Below, one piece after another: positions 13,285 through 29,146 of a DNA stretch of 64,000 nucleotides. The stretch comes from Devosia beringensis (GTDB lineage Bacteria > Pseudomonadota > Alphaproteobacteria > Rhizobiales > Devosiaceae). The notes below the pieces were generated by a model. It saw only the letters and a program-made list of their open reading frames with translations. It was not told the DNA's origin and did no database searches. A program made the translations under genes and the position numbers. How positions within the stretch are numbered: position 1 is the first letter of the stretch; every line of letters begins with the position of its first letter. The DNA is taken from NCBI RefSeq assembly GCF_014926585.1, contig NZ_CP045422.1, positions 1,590,501 through 1,654,500 on the forward strand, written 5' to 3'.

Positions 13285-13360
13285 CGAGCGTAGCTCTCAT
13301 GGCCTCCTCACCTAAAATCGCTCCACTGGAGCGATTTGCCTGCGGCCGGTTCGAAGCCCC
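13285..13360. repeat. Intergenic palindromic repeat, copy A
   Basis: About 75 bases that closely resemble 18099-18172. The core is a perfect inverted repeat AAATCGCTCC-ACT-GGAGCGATTT at 13315-13337, preceded by a shared GAGCG...GCTCTCAT..CCT.CTCACCT stretch and followed by shared GCCT..GGC.GG.TCGAAG. It lies between the ends of pheT and the start of the MurU-like gene. No T-tract follows, so it does not look like a simple terminator. Confidence 0.75.
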
Positions 13361-13405
13361 CTGAAGGGGGAGGGGCGGTTCGGTGCGTGGGGTGAGTTCG
13401 CCGCG

Positions 13406-15826
13406 TCAGGTGCGCAGCACGCCGCCGGTGGACTTGGTGACGGCGGCGACGACGGCGGCGGAGACCTGGTCGATGTCTTCGTCGGTCAGGGTCTTGTCCA
13501 TGGGCTGGATGGTGACGGCGATGGCGACGGACTTCTTGCCGGCTCCGACATGGCTGCCTTCGAAGACGTCAAAGATATTGACGTCGCGGATCAGCGCCTT
13601 GTCGGCGCCGCGGGCGGCGCGCAGGATGGTGGCGGCGGTGACTGCGCTGTCGACGACAAAGGCAAAGTCACGGCTGAGCGGCATGAGCGCGGACAGCGCC
13701 AGAGCCGGCTTGGTGCGGGTAGCCTTCTTGCGCGACTCGGGCAGCGCGTCGAGATCGATCTCGAAGGCGGCGACCGGGCCGCTCAGATCGAGCGCTGTGG
13801 CCCAGGCCGGATGCAGTTCGCCGAACCAGCCCAGGGTGACCTTGGGGCCCAGGGCAATGCGGCCGCCGCGGCCGGGATGGCTCCAGGGTGCCGGTTCGGC
13901 CAGGATCTGCACCTTGTCGATATCGACGCCCAGCGCATCGAGCACGGCGGCCAGATCGGCCTTGGCGTCAAAGACACCAACCTTGTCGGCCTTGCCCGAC
14001 CAGTGACGACCCGAGCCATTCAGGCCGGCCGTGCCGGTGCGGATGCCGGTGGCATAGGTGTGCTGGCCCTCGGGGCTGGCCGAGAGGAAGACCTGGCCGA
14101 CTTCAAAGAGGCCGAGATCATCCAGGCCGCGATTGGTGTTGCGCAGGGCGGCCGCCAGCAGGCCGGGCAGCAGGGAAGGCCGCATGTCGGTCATGTCGGC
14201 GGCGATGGCATTGGCCAACTGCAGCTCTTCCTGGCCGCCACCGAAGCGGGTGGCTTCGGCATGGCTGATGAAGCTCCAGGTGACCGCCTCGTCCAGCCCG
14301 CGCGATGCCAAAGCCCGGCGGGCGATGCGGCGACGGTTCTGGATGGTGGTCAGCATGCGCGGGGCGACATGGCTCAGCCGAGCCAGCGGCTCGACCGGGA
14401 TATTGTCGACGCCGACCATGCGCATGACCTCCTCGACCAGATCGGCCTTGAGGGTGACATCGGGACGCCAGCTGGGGACTTTCACCGTGAAGACATCGCC
14501 CTTGGGGGTGAGCTCGAATCCGAGCTTGGAGAGGATGGCGGTGACGATCATCGGCTCGACATCGAGGCCGGTGAGGCGGCGCACTTCGCTGAGCGGGAAG
14601 TCGATGGTGGTATCAGCATAGACGTCCTCGCCCGACACAGCCGGCTCCATGGCCTGCCCGCCGCAGAGCTCGAGCACCAGGCGCGTCGCCAGCTCGAGGC
14701 CGGGATCGGTCAAGGCCGGATCAACATGGCGCTCGAGGCGATAGCGGGCATCGGAGACGATGCCGGTCTTGCGGCCGGTGCGGGCGATGAGATCAGGATC
14801 CCAGCTGGCGCATTCCATGAAGACATTGGTGGTGGCGTCGGTGACGCCGGAGCGGATGCCGCCCATGATACCGCCGAGGCAAAGCGGGCCGGTATCGTCG
14901 GCGATGACGGTCATGGTCTCGTCGAGGACATAGACCTTGTTGTCGAGCGCGTCGAAGCTCTCGTTGCGGGCATTTCGCAGCACGGGCTGGCCGTCGAGCT
15001 TGTCGGCATCATAGGCGTGCAGCGGCCGGCCCCAGCCGAGCGACACCCAATTGGTGATGTCGACAATGGCATTGATGGGGCGCAGGCCGACGGCGCGCAG
15101 GCGCTGCTGTAACCAGGCGGGGGACGGGCCGTTCTTGACGCCCTTGATATAGCGACCGCCGAAGCGGCGGATGGCCTTGGGCTCGTCCGCGCCGAACTGG
15201 TGCGGCAGCGGGGCGATGGGGCTTTTGCCCTGCGAGGGCACCGGGGACATATCAGTGGTCTTGAGCGTGCCCAGGCCATAGGCGGCCAGATCGCGGGCAA
15301 TGCCATAGACGCCGGTGGCGTCGCCACGATTGGGCGTAATGGAAATGTCAAAGACCACGCCGTCAATGCCGGCATAGCTGGGATAGCTGACGCCAATGGG
15401 GGCGTCGGCGGGCAGCTCGATAATGCCGTCGTGGTCCTCGGAGAGTTCGAGCTCGGCATTGGAGCAGAGCATGCCATTGGAGACCTGGCCGCGGATATTG
15501 CCCTTGCCGATGGTCATGTCCTTGCCCGGGATATAGGTGCCGGGGAAGGCAAAGACGGTCTTGAGGCCGGTGCGCGCATTGGGGGCGCCGCAGACCACGT
15601 CGATCAGCTCACCGGTGCCGGCATCGACCTTGCAGACGCGCAGGCGGTCGGCATCGGGGTGTTGCTCGGCCGAGACCACATGGGCGGTGACGAAATTGGC
15701 CAGCGCCTTGCCCTGGTCTTCCATGGCCTCGAGTTCGAGCCCGATCAGGGTCAGCGTCGTGCCGATTTCAGTGGCGGACGCATCGGTGTCGAGATGTTCC
15801 TTGAGCCAGTCGAGGGTGAATTTCAT
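13406..15826 (-). CDS. pheT: Phenylalanine-tRNA ligase beta subunit
   Basis: Beta subunit of the alpha2-beta2 phenylalanyl-tRNA synthetase, 806 residues, normal length. In order: N-terminal tRNA-binding (EMAP-like) domain at about 40-150, B3/B4 editing domain, B5 domain near 400-470, the inactive class II-like core, and a C-terminal FDX-ACB anticodon-binding domain at 712-805 ending at the stop. It starts 12 bases after the ASCH-exonuclease gene, so pheS, that gene and pheT are one transcription unit. Confidence 0.97.
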   Translation of the reverse strand: MKFTLDWLKEHLDTDASATEIGTTLTLIGLELEAMEDQGKALANFVTAHVVSAEQHPDADRLRVCKVDAGTGELIDVVCGAPNARTGLKTVFAFPGTYIPGKDMTIGKGNIRGQVSNGMLCSNAELELSEDHDGIIELPADAPIGVSYPSYAGIDGVVFDISITPNRGDATGVYGIARDLAAYGLGTLKTTDMSPVPSQGKSPIAPLPHQFGADEPKAIRRFGGRYIKGVKNGPSPAWLQQRLRAVGLRPINAIVDITNWVSLGWGRPLHAYDADKLDGQPVLRNARNESFDALDNKVYVLDETMTVIADDTGPLCLGGIMGGIRSGVTDATTNVFMECASWDPDLIARTGRKTGIVSDARYRLERHVDPALTDPGLELATRLVLELCGGQAMEPAVSGEDVYADTTIDFPLSEVRRLTGLDVEPMIVTAILSKLGFELTPKGDVFTVKVPSWRPDVTLKADLVEEVMRMVGVDNIPVEPLARLSHVAPRMLTTIQNRRRIARRALASRGLDEAVTWSFISHAEATRFGGGQEELQLANAIAADMTDMRPSLLPGLLAAALRNTNRGLDDLGLFEVGQVFLSASPEGQHTYATGIRTGTAGLNGSGRHWSGKADKVGVFDAKADLAAVLDALGVDIDKVQILAEPAPWSHPGRGGRIALGPKVTLGWFGELHPAWATALDLSGPVAAFEIDLDALPESRKKATRTKPALALSALMPLSRDFAFVVDSAVTAATILRAARGADKALIRDVNIFDVFEGSHVGAGKKSVAIAVTIQPMDKTLTDEDIDQVSAAVVAAVTKSTGGVLRT

Positions 15827-15838
15827 GGATATGGGCCT

Positions 15839-16882
15839 TTAGCGGAAGTCGCTGGCGCTGCCGGTAATGGCCGGCAGGCTGCGGGAAATCTTGAACAGTT
15901 CGACCAGCACATTGGCAAAGCCGCGGGCGTCGTCGATGGCACGGTGGGTATGGGCGATGTGACCGTAGAATTCGGCCGGCAGCTTGCTCATGCCCCAGTC
16001 GAGATAGGGCGCGCCACGCAGGGTGCCGGCCATGGTATAAAGGCAGATGCCGCCGCCGCGAAAAATCTGGCGGCCCTTGAACGGACCGGACAGGGCGCGG
16101 GTGCCGGCATATTCATCGAGATAATGATCCATCCACAGCCCGTCAAAGATCATCGGCGCGGCGACGAAGACCTTGGGGCCGGGCAGACTGTCGACCCAAT
16201 CGGCAAAGCGCGGCATGACCACGGCCGGGTCTTCGGCATTGGTCGTGGCGGCCGCCCAGGCCTCGGGCTGGGTTTCCCACCATTCCATGGTGGTCTCATT
16301 GGTGGTGCGGTCGGGGCGCTGCAGCAGCTGGGCCTCGAAGTCGCCATAGGAGGTGCCGTCGGCGGCGATGGCGACCGAGGCAAAGCTCAGCATGGAATTG
16401 TGCAGCGGGGTGGGGCCATCGCTTTCGATATCGGTGACGATGAAGATGGGCGTGGCGACCTGGTTATAGACGTCGCGCCCGGCCGGCAGCACGGTTACGA
16501 GGCGGAAGGTCTCGCAGACCAGCTCCATATCGGGCGAGAAGCCGCCATTGCGGGCGAAATAGGCCTCGTGGCCGGCGCGCCAGGCGGCGTAGTCGCCCTC
16601 GCCTTCCCTGTCGGTGAAGTCCGGGCCAACATCGTCGAAGCGCCTTGTTTCGACGCTGAGCGTCTCGATGACGCAGGCGGGCACACCCGCGCCATTGCGC
16701 ACCACATCGCGCCGCCCGGGCTCAGGCATGGGCTCGCCGCCGGGACCATAGTCGCGCAGCGCGCCACAGGTCGCGGTCTTCCTGCCGGCCAGCACCAAAG
16801 CCAGCAGTTCATCGGCCAGTTCGGGCGAGTCGCCGAAGCTGAACTGGACGGCGTCGGCATAAAGGGGCGGGAGGTCGACCAT
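15839..16882 (-). CDS. ASCH domain fused to a DEDDh 3'-5' exonuclease-like domain
   Basis: Single uninterrupted 347-residue frame lying between pheS (5-base gap) and pheT (12-base gap). Residues about 10-130 resemble an ASCH domain: FSFGDSPELADELLALVLAG followed by GRKTAT, then the VIETLSVETRRFDDV and EGDYAAWRAGHEAYF blocks. ASCH domains are a PUA-like fold linked to RNA binding or RNA/nucleoside hydrolysis. Residues about 145-325 look like a DnaQ/RNase T-type exonuclease with all five DEDDh residues readable: D-x-E in VTDIESDG (near 150), Asp in MIFDGLWMDHY (near 246) and HxAxxD in HRAIDD (309-316). A role on RNA or tRNA is inferred from the domains and position. The exact substrate is unknown, and I do not know this fusion as a described family. 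Confidence 0.8.
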   Translation of the reverse strand: MVDLPPLYADAVQFSFGDSPELADELLALVLAGRKTATCGALRDYGPGGEPMPEPGRRDVVRNGAGVPACVIETLSVETRRFDDVGPDFTDREGEGDYAAWRAGHEAYFARNGGFSPDMELVCETFRLVTVLPAGRDVYNQVATPIFIVTDIESDGPTPLHNSMLSFASVAIAADGTSYGDFEAQLLQRPDRTTNETTMEWWETQPEAWAAATTNAEDPAVVMPRFADWVDSLPGPKVFVAAPMIFDGLWMDHYLDEYAGTRALSGPFKGRQIFRGGGICLYTMAGTLRGAPYLDWGMSKLPAEFYGHIAHTHRAIDDARGFANVLVELFKISRSLPAITGSASDFR

Positions 16883-16886
16883 TGGT

Positions 16887-18017
16887 CTAGCTGCTCAAGC
16901 CGCCAAACAGGGTCGGCAGATCCAGCGGGCGGAAGCCGTAGTGGTCGAGCCAGCGCTGGTCGGCGTCGAAGAAGGCGCGCAGGTCCGGCATGCCGTATTT
17001 GAGCATGGCGATGCGATCGATGCCCATGCCCCAGGCAAAACCCTGGTAGATCTCCGGATCGAGCCCGGCATTGGCGATGACATTGGGATGGACCATTCCG
17101 CAGCCGAGGATTTCGAGCCAGTCGCTGCCTTCGCCGATCTTGACCTCGGCGCCGGAGCGATCGCACTGCACATCGACTTCCATAGATGGCTCGGTGAAGG
17201 GGAAGAAGCTGGGGCGGAAGCGCAGGGTGACGTTGGGGACCTCGAAATAGGCCTTGAGGAATTCCTCGAGCACCCAGCGCAGCTGGCCGATATGGCTGGA
17301 CTTGTCGATCACCAGGCCTTCGACCTGGTGGAACATGGGCGTGTGGGTCTGGTCGCTGTCATTGCGATAGGTGCGACCGGGCATGACCACCCGGATCGGC
17401 GGATCCATGGCGGGGGTCAGATAGGCGGCGGAAGGCTTGTCATTGGTCTTGTGCATGACGCGCATCTGCACCGGCGAGGTATGGGTGCGCAGCACCTTTT
17501 TGACGCCATCGGGGCCGGGCTTCATGAAGAAGGTATCGTGCATTTCCCGAGCCGGATGGCCCTCGGGGAAATTGAGCGCGGTGAAGTTGAGATAGTCGGT
17601 CTCGATATCGGGACCTTCGGCGATGGAAAAGCCCATGTCGGAAAAGATCGCGGTGATCTCGTCGATGGTCTGGCTGATCGGGTGGATGCGGCCACGCGCG
17701 GTGGGCGCCGGTTGCAGCGGCAGGGTGATGTCGAGGGTTTCAGCCGCGAGGCGGGCGTCGAGGGCGGCGGCGCCGAGCGCGGCGCTGCGGGCCTCGATGA
17801 GGCCCGCAATTTCGGCCTTGAGGCCGTTGATGGCCGGGCCGGCGCTCTTGCGCTCTTCTGGCGCCATGGAACCAAGCGAAGCCAGCAGCGCCGAGACACT
17901 GCCCTTCTTGCCCAGCGCGGCAACGCGGACGGCATCAAGCGCGGCCTCATCGGCGGCGGCGGCAATGGCCGCGCCAAGGTCGGTGCGCAGGGTATCGATC
18001 TGGGTATCCAGGGACAT
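16887..18017 (-). CDS. pheS: Phenylalanine-tRNA ligase alpha subunit
   Basis: Catalytic alpha subunit of phenylalanyl-tRNA synthetase, 376 residues. It has an N-terminal coiled coil (residues 1-90), class II motif 2 ([21 protein letters not shown] region) and motif 3 ([20 protein letters not shown]) near the C-terminus. I start at the ATG at 18017, where the family N-terminus [14 protein letters not shown] begins; the open frame runs 67 codons further upstream, through a terminator and a repeat, and is not expected to be translated. It lies downstream of rpmI-rplT, as is usual in alphaproteobacteria. Confidence 0.97.
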
Positions 18018-18098
18018 GGTATTTCTCGTCAATTCGGTTGGCTGCGTTAGAGCATTTTGAATGCGCGGAGTCAGGTGGAAAGTGCAGATTGGCCCTTT

Positions 18099-18172
18099 GA
18101 GCGCCGCTCTCATAGCCTTCTCACCTGAAGCGCTCCATCGGAGCGATTTGCCTATGGCAGGCTCGAAGGGCA
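18099..18172. repeat. Intergenic palindromic repeat, copy B
   Basis: Second copy of the element at 13285-13360, in the same orientation. It has the same CGCTCC-ATC-GGAGCG palindrome followed by ATTTGCCT, here in the leader of pheS, after the rplT terminator. Together the two copies bracket the pheS-pheT block. Confidence 0.75.
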
Positions 18173-18215
18173 AAGAAAAACGCCCCGCGCCAGCCCAAAG
18201 GGCAGCGCAAGGCGT
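18173..18215 (-). terminator. Rho-independent terminator after rplT
   Basis: On the minus strand a long hairpin pairs ACGCC..GCGC.GCCC with GGGC.GCGC..GGCGT (arms at 18196-18215 and 18180-18193), followed by TTTTTCTTT. It separates the ribosomal protein operon from the pheS leader. Confidence 0.8.
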
Positions 18216-18245
18216 CAAATTCGACCTCAGCAGGGCGGGGGAGAG

Positions 18246-18650
18246 TTAGGCGGCGGTGACGCGGGCGTGGGTAACGGTGTCCACGCTCTCGAGATATGCC
18301 AGAGCAGCCTTGGCCTTAGCGACCAGCACGTTGAACGCTTCAGGCTGGGTGATCGCGAGATCGCTCAGCACCTTACGATCGACGGCAATCTCAGCCTTGC
18401 TGAGGCCGTCGATAAATCGACCATAGGTCAGGCCCTGATCGCGCACGGCAGCGTTGATACGCTGGATCCAGAGGGCGCGGAAATTGCGCTTCTTGATACG
18501 ACGATCGCGATAGGCATACTGGCCGGCCTTTTCGACGGCCTGCTTGGCGATACGGATCGTCGACTTGCGGCGGCCATAATAGCCTTCTGCAGCCTTGAGA
18601 ACTTTTTTGTGGCGGGCGTGATTGGTAACGCCTCTTTTAACGCGTGACAT
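18246..18650 (-). CDS. rplT: 50S ribosomal protein L20
   Basis: Large-subunit ribosomal protein of 134 residues with the strongly basic N-terminus typical of L20 ([20 protein letters not shown]) and the conserved [21 protein letters not shown] block. L20 nucleates 50S assembly on 23S rRNA. It follows rpmI by 20 bases and is closed by a terminator. infC, often upstream of rpmI in other bacteria, is absent here. Confidence 0.98.
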
Positions 18651-18670
18651 GTGTCAGCTTCCTTTCAGCG

Positions 18671-18871
18671 TTAGCGATTGTACGGCATGTACCACTTGAC
18701 CAGACCCTCGTCGCCCTTGGACAGGATCTTGGTACCGCGGTTCGTGCGAATGTACTTGGCATTGTGGTTGATCAGGCGGTGGCGCTTGCCGGCGACGCCT
18801 GCCTTGACACGACCGGTCGCTGTGAAACTGAAACGCTTTTTGGCGCCAGATTTCGTCTTCATCTTGGGCAT
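18671..18871 (-). CDS. rpmI: 50S ribosomal protein L35
   Basis: Ribosomal protein of 66 residues, basic, with [20 protein letters not shown] at the start and [19 protein letters not shown] in the middle, as expected of L35. I use the ATG at 18871, preceded by an AGGAC ribosome site; the longer frame adds 15 residues before the conserved N-terminus. First gene of the rpmI-rplT pair. Confidence 0.97.
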
Positions 18872-19393
18872 TTTGCGGGTCCTTATAAGAGATTGGATGG
18901 ATTTGGCCCATCGCATTCAGAGATCGCCACGGCATGCCTGTTGGCCGGGCGATCCGGAGAAGTCGGCTCTATAGGCGGAAAGCGGGCGCAGAGCAAGAGC
19001 CCCAGGGGCTGCAAACGCGCGCTGGCCCCGCCTTGATCACCCCTGCCGGCAGCCGGTGGCCGGACCCGCGGCAAGTCAAGGGCGGCTCGGCCCCGTGCCA
19101 TGCCCGCGAACGGGTGACCGGGGGACCGGGTCGAGGTGGCAATCCAGACGGGATTGTCAGACGTAAACAAGAGGTCGGTCAAAAAGGCCGGTTTGGCGCG
19201 GCATGCGACAATCTGGCACCCGGGTGGCGCTAAACCCCGGAGCGCCCGGCAATTTCAGGAAACATTTTCGACGTTATCACGCGTGAGTGTTCAGTTTATA
19301 CGAACACCCAGTGAAACCTTTGTGGGGGGCTGAGCGTAACTCCTCCCGAGATCACAAACGACCTCTACCCAGCGTCACAAAGGATTACCCAAA
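18872..19393. other. Long intergenic region between divergent rpmI and the secreted-protein pair
   Basis: This 522-base stretch must hold the rpmI promoter and leader on the minus strand and the promoter of the 19394 gene on the plus strand. An inverted repeat GTGTTC...GAACAC with a 9-base spacer sits at 19287-19307, about 90 bases before the 19394 start. I see no tRNA, no convincing open frame and no clear sigma-70 hexamers. The infC gene expected next to rpmI is not here. Confidence 0.6.
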
Positions 19394-19714
19394 ATGAACA
19401 TCTTCAAGACCTTCGCCCTGACCGCAACCCTGTTGGCCGGCGGCGCCACTGCAACCCTGGCTGCCAGCCCCTATGACGTCATGGACGGCGTGAGCTCGCT
19501 CGGCTCGATCCAGGAAGCCCGCGGCGCTACCGTGCTGCAGGTCAATGCGAACGAAGCCTTCACGCTCAAGTTCGACAATGACGTCAGCTCTGTCCAGGCC
19601 CGCGTCAAGAACAACCCAAGCCTGATCGAGACCATCGAGCGCCAGGGCTATACGATCGAGCAGATCGTCGGTGTCGCCGGCGACTTGAACAGCCTGACCC
19701 TCTACGCACTGTAA
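19394..19714 (+). CDS. Small secreted protein, tandem copy 1
   Basis: 106-residue protein of unknown function with a clear Sec signal peptide (MNIFKTFALTATLLAGG, predicted cleavage near LAA-SP at residues 23-25). The mature part of about 82 residues has no cysteine and alternates polar and hydrophobic positions. It is followed 139 bases later by a paralogue of exactly the same length that differs at only about 17 positions, mainly at the extreme N-terminus and in the segment NNPSLIETIERQ. A hairpin without a T-tract lies between the two. I do not recognise the family. Export to periplasm or medium is inferred from the signal peptide. Confidence 0.85.
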   Translation: MNIFKTFALTATLLAGGATATLAASPYDVMDGVSSLGSIQEARGATVLQVNANEAFTLKFDNDVSSVQARVKNNPSLIETIERQGYTIEQIVGVAGDLNSLTLYAL

Positions 19715-26180: not shown

Positions 26181-26830
26181 GGGGTTTCCGATCCAGGCGT
26201 CGACGGCAGCGTGACGTTCACGCGGGAGAAAGTCCAGACTGCCTCGGTGACATCATAGGTCATGCCGATGCCGTCAAGCGAGGACCCATCGGCATAGTCG
26301 ACATGCACCCGCCCCCTGGCCACCAGGGTCTGGGCGGCGTAGTCGAACACTAAATCCACAACCGTCGCGGTGGTTCCGGTGGATTCGGCGATGATGGCGA
26401 CGCCCGGGATGGTCACGGTCTCGGCGCCGCTGTCGAGCCGGGCTGCGTGGGCGGTTACCTCGGTCACCACCCCGCCGGGCCGGTTCATGGAGAGCGCTGC
26501 CTCCTCGAGGTCGATCTCGTTAGCGGCCGTAATGGCGGCCTGGGCCGATCGGGCCCAGACGCGGTAGCTGGTGCCATCGTCAAGCACGCCGGAATATTGC
26601 GGGGTTTCGATGGTGACCGCCTCGCGCGACACCTCGATGCGGCCGACGCCGAAGCGGGCCGAGAGGCTTGAGAGGTAGATCTGCCCGACCAGCAGGACGA
26701 GCACCAGGATGCCGAGCGCCGGCACGCCGACGCGCAGGATGGCCACCAGGCGGTTGCGGCGCGCCAGGCGCTGATAGATGGCCTCGCGCTGGGCGGCATC
26801 GGCCTGCAGGTTCATCACCGTCATGGCCAT
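26177..26830 (-). CDS. lptC: LPS export protein LptC
   Basis: 217-residue bitopic inner-membrane protein. One membrane helix at about residues 30-52 (VAILRVGVPALGILVLVLLVG) is followed by a periplasmic jellyroll resembling LptA. It passes LPS from LptB2FG to LptA. The ATG at 26830 overlaps the nrnC stop by one base (TGATG), and the end overlaps lptA as ATGA. Confidence 0.9.
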   Translation of the reverse strand: MAMTVMNLQADAAQREAIYQRLARRNRLVAILRVGVPALGILVLVLLVGQIYLSSLSARFGVGRIEVSREAVTIETPQYSGVLDDGTSYRVWARSAQAAITAANEIDLEEAALSMNRPGGVVTEVTAHAARLDSGAETVTIPGVAIIAESTGTTATVVDLVFDYAAQTLVARGRVHVDYADGSSLDGIGMTYDVTEAVWTFSRVNVTLPSTPGSETP

Positions 26831-27447
26831 CAGCTATGGGCGAAGATGTCGATCTCGCCCCAGCCCAGCAGATCGAGTTCGCAGCGCGTCTTGAGAAAGT
26901 CAAAGCACTGCCGGGCGAGCTCGGTGCGGCCTTCGCGCGCCAGCATGCGATCGAGATGGCGCTTGAGATCGTGCAGGTAGAGCACGTCGGAAGCGGCATA
27001 TTCGAGCTGGGCGTCGCTGAGCTTGTCGGCGCCCCAGTCCGAGCTCTGCTGCTGCTTGGACAAGTCGACGCCGAGCAGTTCGCGGGTGATGTCTTTCAGG
27101 CCGTGGCGATCGGTATAGGTGCGGACCAGCTTGCTGGCGATCTTGGTGCAGTAGATCGGGCCGGTGACGACGTCGAAGCGGTTCTTGAGCGCCGCCACGT
27201 CGAAGCGGGCATAGTGGAAGATCTTGGTGACGGCGGGATCGGCCAGCAGCTTGACCAGATTGGGGGCCTGGCTGACATCCTTGGGGAGCTGGACGATATC
27301 GGCGCTGCCGTCGCCGGGCGAGAGCTGGATGACGCAGAGCCGATCGCGATGGGGGTGTAGGCCCATGGTCTCGGTATCAATCGCGACTTCGCGGCCGTCG
27401 TAATTGGACAGGTTGGGCAGATCGCCGCGGTGCAGACGGATGGCCAT
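26830..27447 (-). CDS. nrnC: Short RNase D-like exoribonuclease, NrnC type
   Basis: 205-residue DEDDy 3'-5' exoribonuclease. The catalytic residues are D24 and E26 (VAIDTETMGL), Asp in FHYARFDVAAL, and Tyr and Asp in YAASD. There is no HRDC domain, so it is not full-length RNase D. Length and motifs fit NrnC, the alphaproteobacterial enzyme that degrades di- and short oligoribonucleotides (including pGpG) where Orn is missing. I use the ATG at 27447; the longer frame adds 94 residues that run into the lnt region. It leads the lptC-lptA-lptB run, a common arrangement in the order. Confidence 0.88.
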   Translation of the reverse strand: MAIRLHRGDLPNLSNYDGREVAIDTETMGLHPHRDRLCVIQLSPGDGSADIVQLPKDVSQAPNLVKLLADPAVTKIFHYARFDVAALKNRFDVVTGPIYCTKIASKLVRTYTDRHGLKDITRELLGVDLSKQQQSSDWGADKLSDAQLEYAASDVLYLHDLKRHLDRMLAREGRTELARQCFDFLKTRCELDLLGWGEIDIFAHS

Positions 27448-27535
27448 GGAAATCCTCGCAGGAAGAGTAGCTCCCTGATGCCACAGCATCACGGCATTGG
27501 AAAGGCTGGGCAGGGGACGGGCGGCAGTGCCGCGA

Positions 27536-29146
27536 TCACAAAGCCGGGCGGCGGCGCCGGCGCACCAGGACGGACAGGCCGAGGCCCAGCAGCAGGGCAA
27601 TGAGCAGGGGCCAGTAGCGGAGCTGGCTGAACGGGGTGGCAGCGAGCCGTTCATCGGGACGCACGTCGAGGGCATCCATCTGCAAGACCGGCAATTGCGC
27701 GGTAATGCGGCCGAGCGGATCGGTGGCAAAGGTCAGGCCAGAATTGGCGGCGCGAACCAGGCTCATGCCCTCCTCGACGGCCCGGATGCGGGCATGATGG
27801 GCGTGCTGGGCCGGGCCGATGGAGTGATCGAACCAGGCATCATTGGTGATGTTGAAGAGGAACTGGGCCCCTGCCGTATCGCCCAGATCGCCGGAAAACA
27901 GGATTTCGTAGCAGATCAGCGCCAGCAGAGCGGGCTTGCCGGGCAGGCTCATCAGGCGGCGGCGGGCGTCGCCATGGCTCCAGCCTTCGGCGCCGGGCAC
28001 GAACTGCTTGATGCCCAGGCTGGCAAAGAAGGGGGCGAAGGGCAGGAATTCGCCGAAGGGTACCAGATGGGCCTTGTCGTAGCTGGCAATGATCTCGCCA
28101 TTGCTGTCGATGGCCAGGATGGCATTGAAGGGCGGGCCGGAAGGCGTGGTGGTGCCGGGCTCATATTGCAGGCGCGGCGCCCCGGCCAGCAGGGTGGTGC
28201 GCTCGGGCAGCAGGCGGGCAATGCGGGCCAGCGCCTCGGGATAGGTGGAGAGATAAAAGGGCAGGCTGGATTCGGGCCAGACCAAAAGGTCGATATCGCC
28301 GAGACCCTGATCATCGGGGCCGGTGCGCATGTCCGAGAGCATGAGCAGGCGATCGATCAACGCCACCGGATCGGCATTGTTCCAGTCGGCATGCTCATAG
28401 ACCAGCGGCTGCACCAGCCGCAGGGCCGTATCGATGCGTGGGGTGACCGTGGTGCCGGTGAGGCGGTTGTGGCCATAGCCGAGCTGGGCAGCGATGACAG
28501 CAATAGCGATGAAGAAGGGCAGGAGGCGCCGGCTGAGGCTGCGCTGGTCGGCCGGCCAGATCAGCGCCGGGGTCATGGCCAACAGCGCGGCCAGCAGGGT
28601 CAGGCCATAGATGCCGATAACGGCGGCCAGCTGCATCATCTCGTCATTGGGGGTGAGGGCATAGCCGAGCAGATCGAAGGGGAAGCCGGTCAGCACGTGA
28701 CCGCGGGCCCATTCGGCCATGGTGAGGAAGGTGGCCAGAGTGACGATGCGCCAGGGGCCGTGGCTCCACAGCAGGTGGGCCAAGGCGCTGGCCAGGCCCC
28801 AGAATAGGGCGATCAGGGCGGCCAGCGCCAGGATGGCGAAGGGCATGATGACCAGCATGACCCCGCCCTCGACGAAGAAGGCGGCGCCCAGCCAGTGAAA
28901 GGCGACGGTGAAATAGCCCCAGCCAAAGGCAAAGCCGATGGTGAAGGCCGGGCCGAACAGGCGGCGCCAGCCACGGACGGTTTCGGCGCCATCGAGGCAC
29001 CAGATCCAGACCGGAAAGGCAATGAACAGCGCCGGCAGGACAAAGAGCGGCGGCACCGACAGGCCCGCCAAAGCACCGGCCACCAGCAGCAGCACGAAGC
29101 GCCGCCAGCCATGACTGAGCATGGCGGTCTCGGCGAGCCAGGTCAT
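27536..29146 (-). CDS. lnt: Apolipoprotein N-acyltransferase
   Basis: Inner-membrane enzyme that adds the third acyl chain to the N-terminal cysteine of lipoproteins. 536 residues: an N-terminal set of six to seven membrane helices, then a periplasmic nitrilase-like domain, then a final helix near the C-terminus (YWPLLIALLLGLGLSVLV). The catalytic triad can be read as Glu in LLVWPESSLPFY, Lys in YDKAHLVPFGEF and Cys in ALICYEILF. It is separated from nrnC by 88 bases and faces a divergent LysR gene. Confidence 0.95.
   Translation of the reverse strand: MTWLAETAMLSHGWRRFVLLLVAGALAGLSVPPLFVLPALFIAFPVWIWCLDGAETVRGWRRLFGPAFTIGFAFGWGYFTVAFHWLGAAFFVEGGVMLVIMPFAILALAALIALFWGLASALAHLLWSHGPWRIVTLATFLTMAEWARGHVLTGFPFDLLGYALTPNDEMMQLAAVIGIYGLTLLAALLAMTPALIWPADQRSLSRRLLPFFIAIAVIAAQLGYGHNRLTGTTVTPRIDTALRLVQPLVYEHADWNNADPVALIDRLLMLSDMRTGPDDQGLGDIDLLVWPESSLPFYLSTYPEALARIARLLPERTTLLAGAPRLQYEPGTTTPSGPPFNAILAIDSNGEIIASYDKAHLVPFGEFLPFAPFFASLGIKQFVPGAEGWSHGDARRRLMSLPGKPALLALICYEILFSGDLGDTAGAQFLFNITNDAWFDHSIGPAQHAHHARIRAVEEGMSLVRAANSGLTFATDPLGRITAQLPVLQMDALDVRPDERLAATPFSQLRYWPLLIALLLGLGLSVLVRRRRRPAL

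Follow-up and report, generated by a model that had tools for sequence, protein, structure and literature searches.

The closest solved structure to one half of the protein discussed here is that of Cap18 (PDB 7t2s), a 3'-5' exonuclease from the cyclic-oligonucleotide-based antiphage signaling system (CBASS) of Escherichia coli upec-117. This protein, a fusion of an ASCH domain with a DEDDh exonuclease, is encoded between pheS and pheT, the genes for the two subunits of phenylalanyl-tRNA synthetase (PheRS), in Devosia beringensis (contig NZ_CP045422.1, positions 1,590,501 to 1,654,500; this whole stretch of 64,000 nucleotides is the window, and coordinates below are counted from its first base). 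Whereas Cap18 has no ASCH domain and belongs to a CBASS operon, the Devosia exonuclease is fused to ASCH and lies in the pheST operon. In the Cap18 system itself, a catalytic mutant is reported to leave phage protection unchanged (PMC9122588), so that the likeness to Cap18 lends the Devosia protein no function. Among other described exonucleases, RNase T (E. coli rnt; PF00929) shares about 14% identity with the exonuclease half, and the Rv2179c-like exoribonucleases (PF16473; RNase AS) are its most frequent Pfam match, Rv2179c being called a divergent RNase T orthologue in a review (PMC8628891). As to the other half, ASCH proteins of the DUF984/YhfF type (PDB 1t62 and 3s9x) are single-domain proteins with hypothetical or domain-based names, in contrast to the Devosia ASCH domain with its attached exonuclease. 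YqfB, also an ASCH protein, is an N4-acetylcytidine amidohydrolase, and another one, ZmASCH, is reported to cleave single-stranded RNA (PMC5615036).

The fusion gene, its parts and its two neighbors are laid out as follows:

15839..16882, minus strand: fused ASCH-exonuclease gene, one continuous frame of 347 amino acids plus stop
16490..16882, minus strand: ASCH domain, residues 1-131, PUA-like, DUF984/YhfF-type by record names (PF04266; PDB 1t62, 3s9x)
16766..16786, minus strand: ASCH motif GRKTATC, residues 33-39 (K35, T38, C39), from alignment conservation
16598..16606, minus strand: ASCH E93-G94-E95, invariant in 51 of 51
16451..16489, minus strand: interdomain link, residues 132-144, mostly one predicted helix (133-142), with no methionine
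15839..16450, minus strand: DEDDh exonuclease domain, residues 145-347 plus stop
16424..16432, minus strand: exonuclease motif I, D151-I152-E153, D and E in 86 of 86
16142..16144, minus strand: exonuclease motif II aspartate, D247, in 86 of 86
15929..15946, minus strand: exonuclease motif III, H313-x4-D318, in 86 of 86
16887..18218, minus strand: pheS (TIGR00468, over cut-off)
13406..15826, minus strand: pheT (TIGR00472, over cut-off)

A sequence-only reading of this DNA had proposed that both domains stand in one frame, and the wider survey bears this out. Of the 37 genomes of the genus set, 24 gave a full-length single-frame match, 7 held the exonuclease alone and 6 neither. Among the 120 genomes of the family, 94 matched and 43 carried the whole fusion in one frame, as do many protein records. 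Compared with the window gene, 23 orthologues gave a median ratio of nonsynonymous to synonymous substitutions (dN/dS, Nei-Gojobori) of 0.17 for the ASCH half and 0.12 for the exonuclease half, so both halves are maintained under purifying selection.

All five DEDDh residues of motifs I to III are intact in each of the 86 aligned relatives, confirming the complete catalytic set claimed earlier, and structure prediction, which the sequence-only reading had suggested, returned models with clear fold matches for both domains. The exonuclease half is predicted to adopt an RNase H-like exonuclease fold; Cap18 and RNase T tie as its nearest structures, ahead of oligoribonuclease and PDB 4hec, which we take to be Rv2179c. 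By profile, homology to Cap18 extends across profile positions 141-334 (E 5e-19), and PF16473 was matched more often than any other Pfam family (by 11 of 12 exonuclease members at E 0.01). One homologue (locus L219) passed the PF16473 cut-off with 30.2 against 27 bits, and many protein records among the matches listed carry the PF16473 domain, one of them (P0141) under the Rv2179c-like name. For the exonuclease half, fold and catalytic residues support the proposed assignment; the window protein itself stays below the cut-offs of both PF16473 and PF00929. Profile-profile comparison gave no significant match to RNase T (hhalign probability 1.2%) or to oligoribonuclease (Orn; 0.8%), each represented by a single E. 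coli sequence. In three public protein records (P0093, P0102 and P0114), the exonuclease goes by the name "DNA polymerase III subunit epsilon"; the genuine DnaQ is encoded at another site in the genome.

The ASCH assignment was likewise upheld, with PF04266 scoring 63.7 bits against a curated cut-off of 21.2 and the predicted model showing a PUA-like beta-barrel to which PDB 1t62 and 3s9x were matched both by sequence and by fold. K35, C39, E93, E95, W101, H105 and R111 are invariant in 51 of 51 ASCH rows and T38 is present in 50, with serine in one; this conservation suggests that these residues form a binding or catalytic pocket. An alignment in which ASCH-only rows were mixed with fusions (A3) looked misaligned and was dropped, its replacement (A4) being free of ASCH-only rows.

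When named genomes were scanned for the exonuclease by profile, 216 relatives were confirmed and the best 80 kept. Of these 80, 77 are located between pheS and pheT, at loci that share ancestry and are not independent of one another. They comprise 28 ASCH-exonuclease fusions (in Devosia and a few metagenome-assembled genomes with other labels), 35 exonucleases alone (in Devosia, Arsenicitalea, Rhizobium, Ciceribacter, Mesorhizobium, Bauldia and others), 8 loci with ASCH and exonuclease as two separate genes, and 6 fusions in the reversed order, exonuclease-ASCH, all from Maritalea. Placement in a CBASS operon was found neither in the window nor at these 77 loci. The remaining three are a contig that starts too near the gene for its upstream side to be seen (pheT follows) and two actinobacterial copies located elsewhere. 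The latter, in Isoptericola (L205) and Paractinoplanes (L210), share 50-52% identity with the exonuclease and were perhaps acquired by transfer. One further genome (G712; L219, 2495-5006) carries pheS, an ASCH gene, about 0.9 kb of other sequence, two tandem exonuclease copies (65% and 45% identical to the window protein) and then pheT.

In the window, the fusion frame lies 4 bases from pheS and 12 bases from pheT; of the gaps of 5 and 12 bases claimed before, the second therefore stands and the first is counted as 4. The pheS frame as listed is probably too long, its true start being the internal ATG of MSLDTQ. Across the 77 loci, the exonuclease stop precedes the pheT start by a median of 11 bases (30 bases or fewer in 72), and the first matched base on the pheS side is a median of 40 bases away. 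The conserved place and the short stop-to-pheT spacing make joint expression with PheRS, as proposed earlier, likely; spacing on the pheS side is looser.

Trees of the exonuclease and of PheT, built with FastTree, correlate at r 0.86 (80 rows, in which some genomes occur twice), the largest of 200 permuted values being 0.22. For the 42 rows that do not belong to core Devosia r is 0.72, and for the 12 rows from other families it is 0.91. Mapped on the PheT tree as sampled, presence and absence require at least 14 changes and the four architectures at least 20. These results are most simply read as an ancient pheS-exonuclease-pheT block that was lost many times; judged from the trees, the location between the two genes is old and has been passed on largely by vertical descent.

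The ASCH domain has its own tie to pheST. Outside the family of the window genome (f1), 32 genomes of the order contain an ASCH match at 1e-20 or better; by a count read by hand, in which only the pheT side was seen for G274 and G224, 18 of these adjoin pheT, 10 do not and 4 are undecided. Among the 18, the ASCH gene lies on the pheS side in 10 and downstream of pheT in 8, all of the latter from family f43. At seven f43 loci (L045, L046, L048, L050, L052, L054 and L223), the same-family ASCH follows pheT by about 110 bases or less.

We propose that a single protein, made alongside PheRS, joins a PUA-like ASCH domain to an RNase T/Cap18-like DEDDh exonuclease. In this scenario, the exonuclease half would act by the predicted two-metal 3'-to-5' hydrolysis, while K35, T38, C39, E93, E95, H105 and R111 would form a pocket in which a substrate base is held, thereby determining what the exonuclease selects. 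The substrate would be RNA over DNA, with tRNA the leading candidate because of the analogy to RNase T, whose usual type was not found in the genome. A PF00929 search of that genome listed DnaQ alone, and a PF01612 search listed RNase D, the window gene at 26830-27729, a 1082-codon frame and a weak match over DnaQ; neither returned an RNase T or oligoribonuclease of the usual type, though divergent ones could have been missed. The gene at 26830-27729 (minus strand) is an RNase D-family gene that passes the PF01612 cut-off and stays below those of the NCBIfam models; we take it to be NrnC-like and the 1082-codon frame to be DNA polymerase I, no model having exceeded its cut-off for either identification. 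That the fusion, likely made with PheRS, trims RNA from the 3' end, with tRNA as its most probable target, is a tentative reading to which we assign a probability of about 0.35. We consider rather unlikely the more specific scenario of a PheRS-coupled surveillance of tRNA 3' ends in Hyphomicrobiales, in which ASCH would read a base close to the end of the tRNA, the RNase T-like exonuclease would trim or condemn tRNAs during charging, the position between the PheRS genes would keep the protein in step with the synthetase, and fusion would have occurred at least twice independently in opposite orders.

Several observations weigh against the trimming of RNA ends in connection with PheRS. Both domains are acidic, the ASCH half very much so (isoelectric point [pI] 4.2-5.0; exonuclease median 5.1), which hardly suggests strong RNA binding, and YqfB-type ASCH proteins are reported not to have bound tRNA in electrophoretic mobility shift assays (PMC9599836). 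Given the acidity of the halves and this negative assay, ASCH may hold a single base or a small ligand instead of gripping RNA. The window protein reached 20.3 bits (whole) and 22.6 bits (exonuclease half) against the PF16473 cut-off of 27, and 18.8 and 21 bits against the PF00929 cut-off of 24; the PF00929 search of the genome missed its own fused exonuclease, so that other divergent ones could have been missed too. Spacing on the pheS side is 300 bases or more at 20 of the 77 loci, and three relatives at about 40% identity from within the order (L041-L043) lack both pheS and pheT in the surrounding 1.5 kb. The gene is also absent from 6 of the 37 genus genomes and from G199, where PheT is 90% identical and the pheS-pheT gap measures only 69 bases; it is thus not essential there. 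G199 (L056, L220), which holds the best PheT match after the window genome, has a distant exonuclease (30-33% identity) elsewhere.

In the strongest alternative, the protein is a hitch-hiker: an exonuclease acting generally on RNA or oligonucleotides would have settled, together with its ASCH partner, in a permissive, well-expressed slot, the two domains fusing as neighbors in a short gap, with no relation to PheRS or tRNA. We fetched 60 Hyphomicrobiales regions (L056-L115), picked mostly for lacking the exonuclease/ASCH gene, and resolved both pheS and pheT in 57; the gap between them was 150 bases or more in 24. Two of these wide gaps (L092 and L094) hold the same-family ASCH. A Pfam scan of the inserts from 16 of the 24 gave a match for 11 (DUF559 in four; TIR, DUF421, ABM, cation efflux, DUF6173, DUF2283 and DUF2442 in one each) and none for the other 5. 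The TIR insert (L076) corresponds to PADLOC PDC-S35, a candidate defense family. The pheS-pheT gap is therefore a permissive, recurrent insertion slot which other genera fill with unrelated genes, and position alone gives no proof of a function linked to PheRS. Vertical inheritance by itself would explain the conserved place, and two neighbors in one short slot could fuse in either order through adjacency alone, as the two orders observed would lead one to expect. Distant relatives, mostly at 33-42% identity, occur elsewhere in the same order and in others among mixed neighbors. In a class-wide sample, 15 of 387 genomes, our own included, matched the exonuclease at 1e-8, and the 14 others had no pheS or pheT within 1.5-kb flanks; the neighbors of distant relatives at L117-L127, L205 and L210, judged by eye, shared no common theme. 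Our protein searches covered the best 120 of 899 and the best 120 of 1357 matches and the scan of named genomes the best 80 of 216, so that distant relatives are under-sampled. Against a passive association stand the same-family ASCH adjoining pheT from its other side in the eight f43 genomes, the presence of both families at pheST far above the expectation for random placement, and the retention of the fusion across much of Devosia with its DEDDh and ASCH residues intact. Weighing both sides, we give the hitch-hiker about the same tentative weight as the trimming of RNA 3' ends.

It is unlikely, in our judgment, that the protein instead clears modified nucleotides, the exonuclease freeing them and ASCH hydrolyzing the modified base as YqfB does with N4-acetylcytidine. 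K35 and T38 align with K21 and T24 of YqfB, the Lys and Thr of the shared GRKT-T motif, several polar ASCH residues are invariant in all 51 rows, and an acidic pI fits a small ligand better than RNA. This register, however, comes from a weak hhalign match (probability 14.5%) that stops at residue 94 and does not establish the invariant E93 or E95 as the counterpart of Glu74 of YqfB. YqfB R26A is reported to be inactive and Arg26 thus essential (PMC6972931), yet among the 51 rows the equivalent position (Gly40 in the window protein, in the same weak register) carries Gly 48 times, Asp twice and Asn once, and never Arg. Deacetylation of the YqfB type is not supported by this comparison, and the modified-nucleoside reading of ASCH offered earlier is weakened, as the domain retains the Lys and Thr and lacks the arginine.

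An equally improbable alternative is a defense or stress effector, in which a Cap18-like nuclease housed in an essential operon would act against foreign nucleic acid. The closest solved structure does come from a CBASS operon, the PADLOC "Effector, Exonuclease" model matches 11 of 12 exonuclease members, and at L076, in one other genome, the slot is occupied by the TIR protein. Most defense genes, nevertheless, do not share this history of long and largely vertical descent within a housekeeping operon, the catalytic mutant of Cap18 was neutral in the phage assay mentioned above, and among 10 other slot inserts scanned with PADLOC the TIR protein alone gave a strong match.

That an assembly artifact joined two genes is ruled out: the halves are separate genes at 8 of the 80 loci, but independent assemblies agree on the single frame in the 43 family genomes and many protein records, and six Maritalea loci carry the reversed fusion.

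Two further genes precede pheS on the same strand:

18246..18650, minus strand: rplT (TIGR01032, over cut-off)
18671..18916, minus strand: rpmI (TIGR00001, over cut-off)

Scans of 13300-19400 found signals at chance level, with 2 promoter-like sites, one of them before rpmI (shuffles 1.0, standard deviation 1.1), and 3 terminator-like sites, one within the fusion gene on its own strand (shuffles 3.9, standard deviation 2.1).

Both domains belong to known kinds, but the literature searched did not yield their combination in one protein, in either of the two opposite orders, or its location in pheST. Open-licence searches found no paper on a gene between pheS and pheT or on pheT with exonuclease and ASCH, and none for Rv2179c-like with exoribonuclease; a search for YhfF with ASCH returned another topic. 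Among the matches listed for ASCH, exonuclease, fusion and DEDD, no such protein appeared in titles or abstract openings.

Most specialists would not expect to find a nuclease gene lodged between those for the two subunits of an aminoacyl-tRNA synthetase. The pattern is striking and easily tested, the mechanism being a proposal. Even if the link to PheRS proves passive, the gap offers a useful example of a permissive slot within an essential operon. For much of the history of this bacterial order, a single nuclease family has kept its position between pheS and pheT, and it has fused with the same small domain in both possible arrangements; if its substrate is tRNA, the fusion would be a synthetase-linked factor for tRNA ends that has not been described before, and its genome is one in which RNase T of the usual type was not detected.
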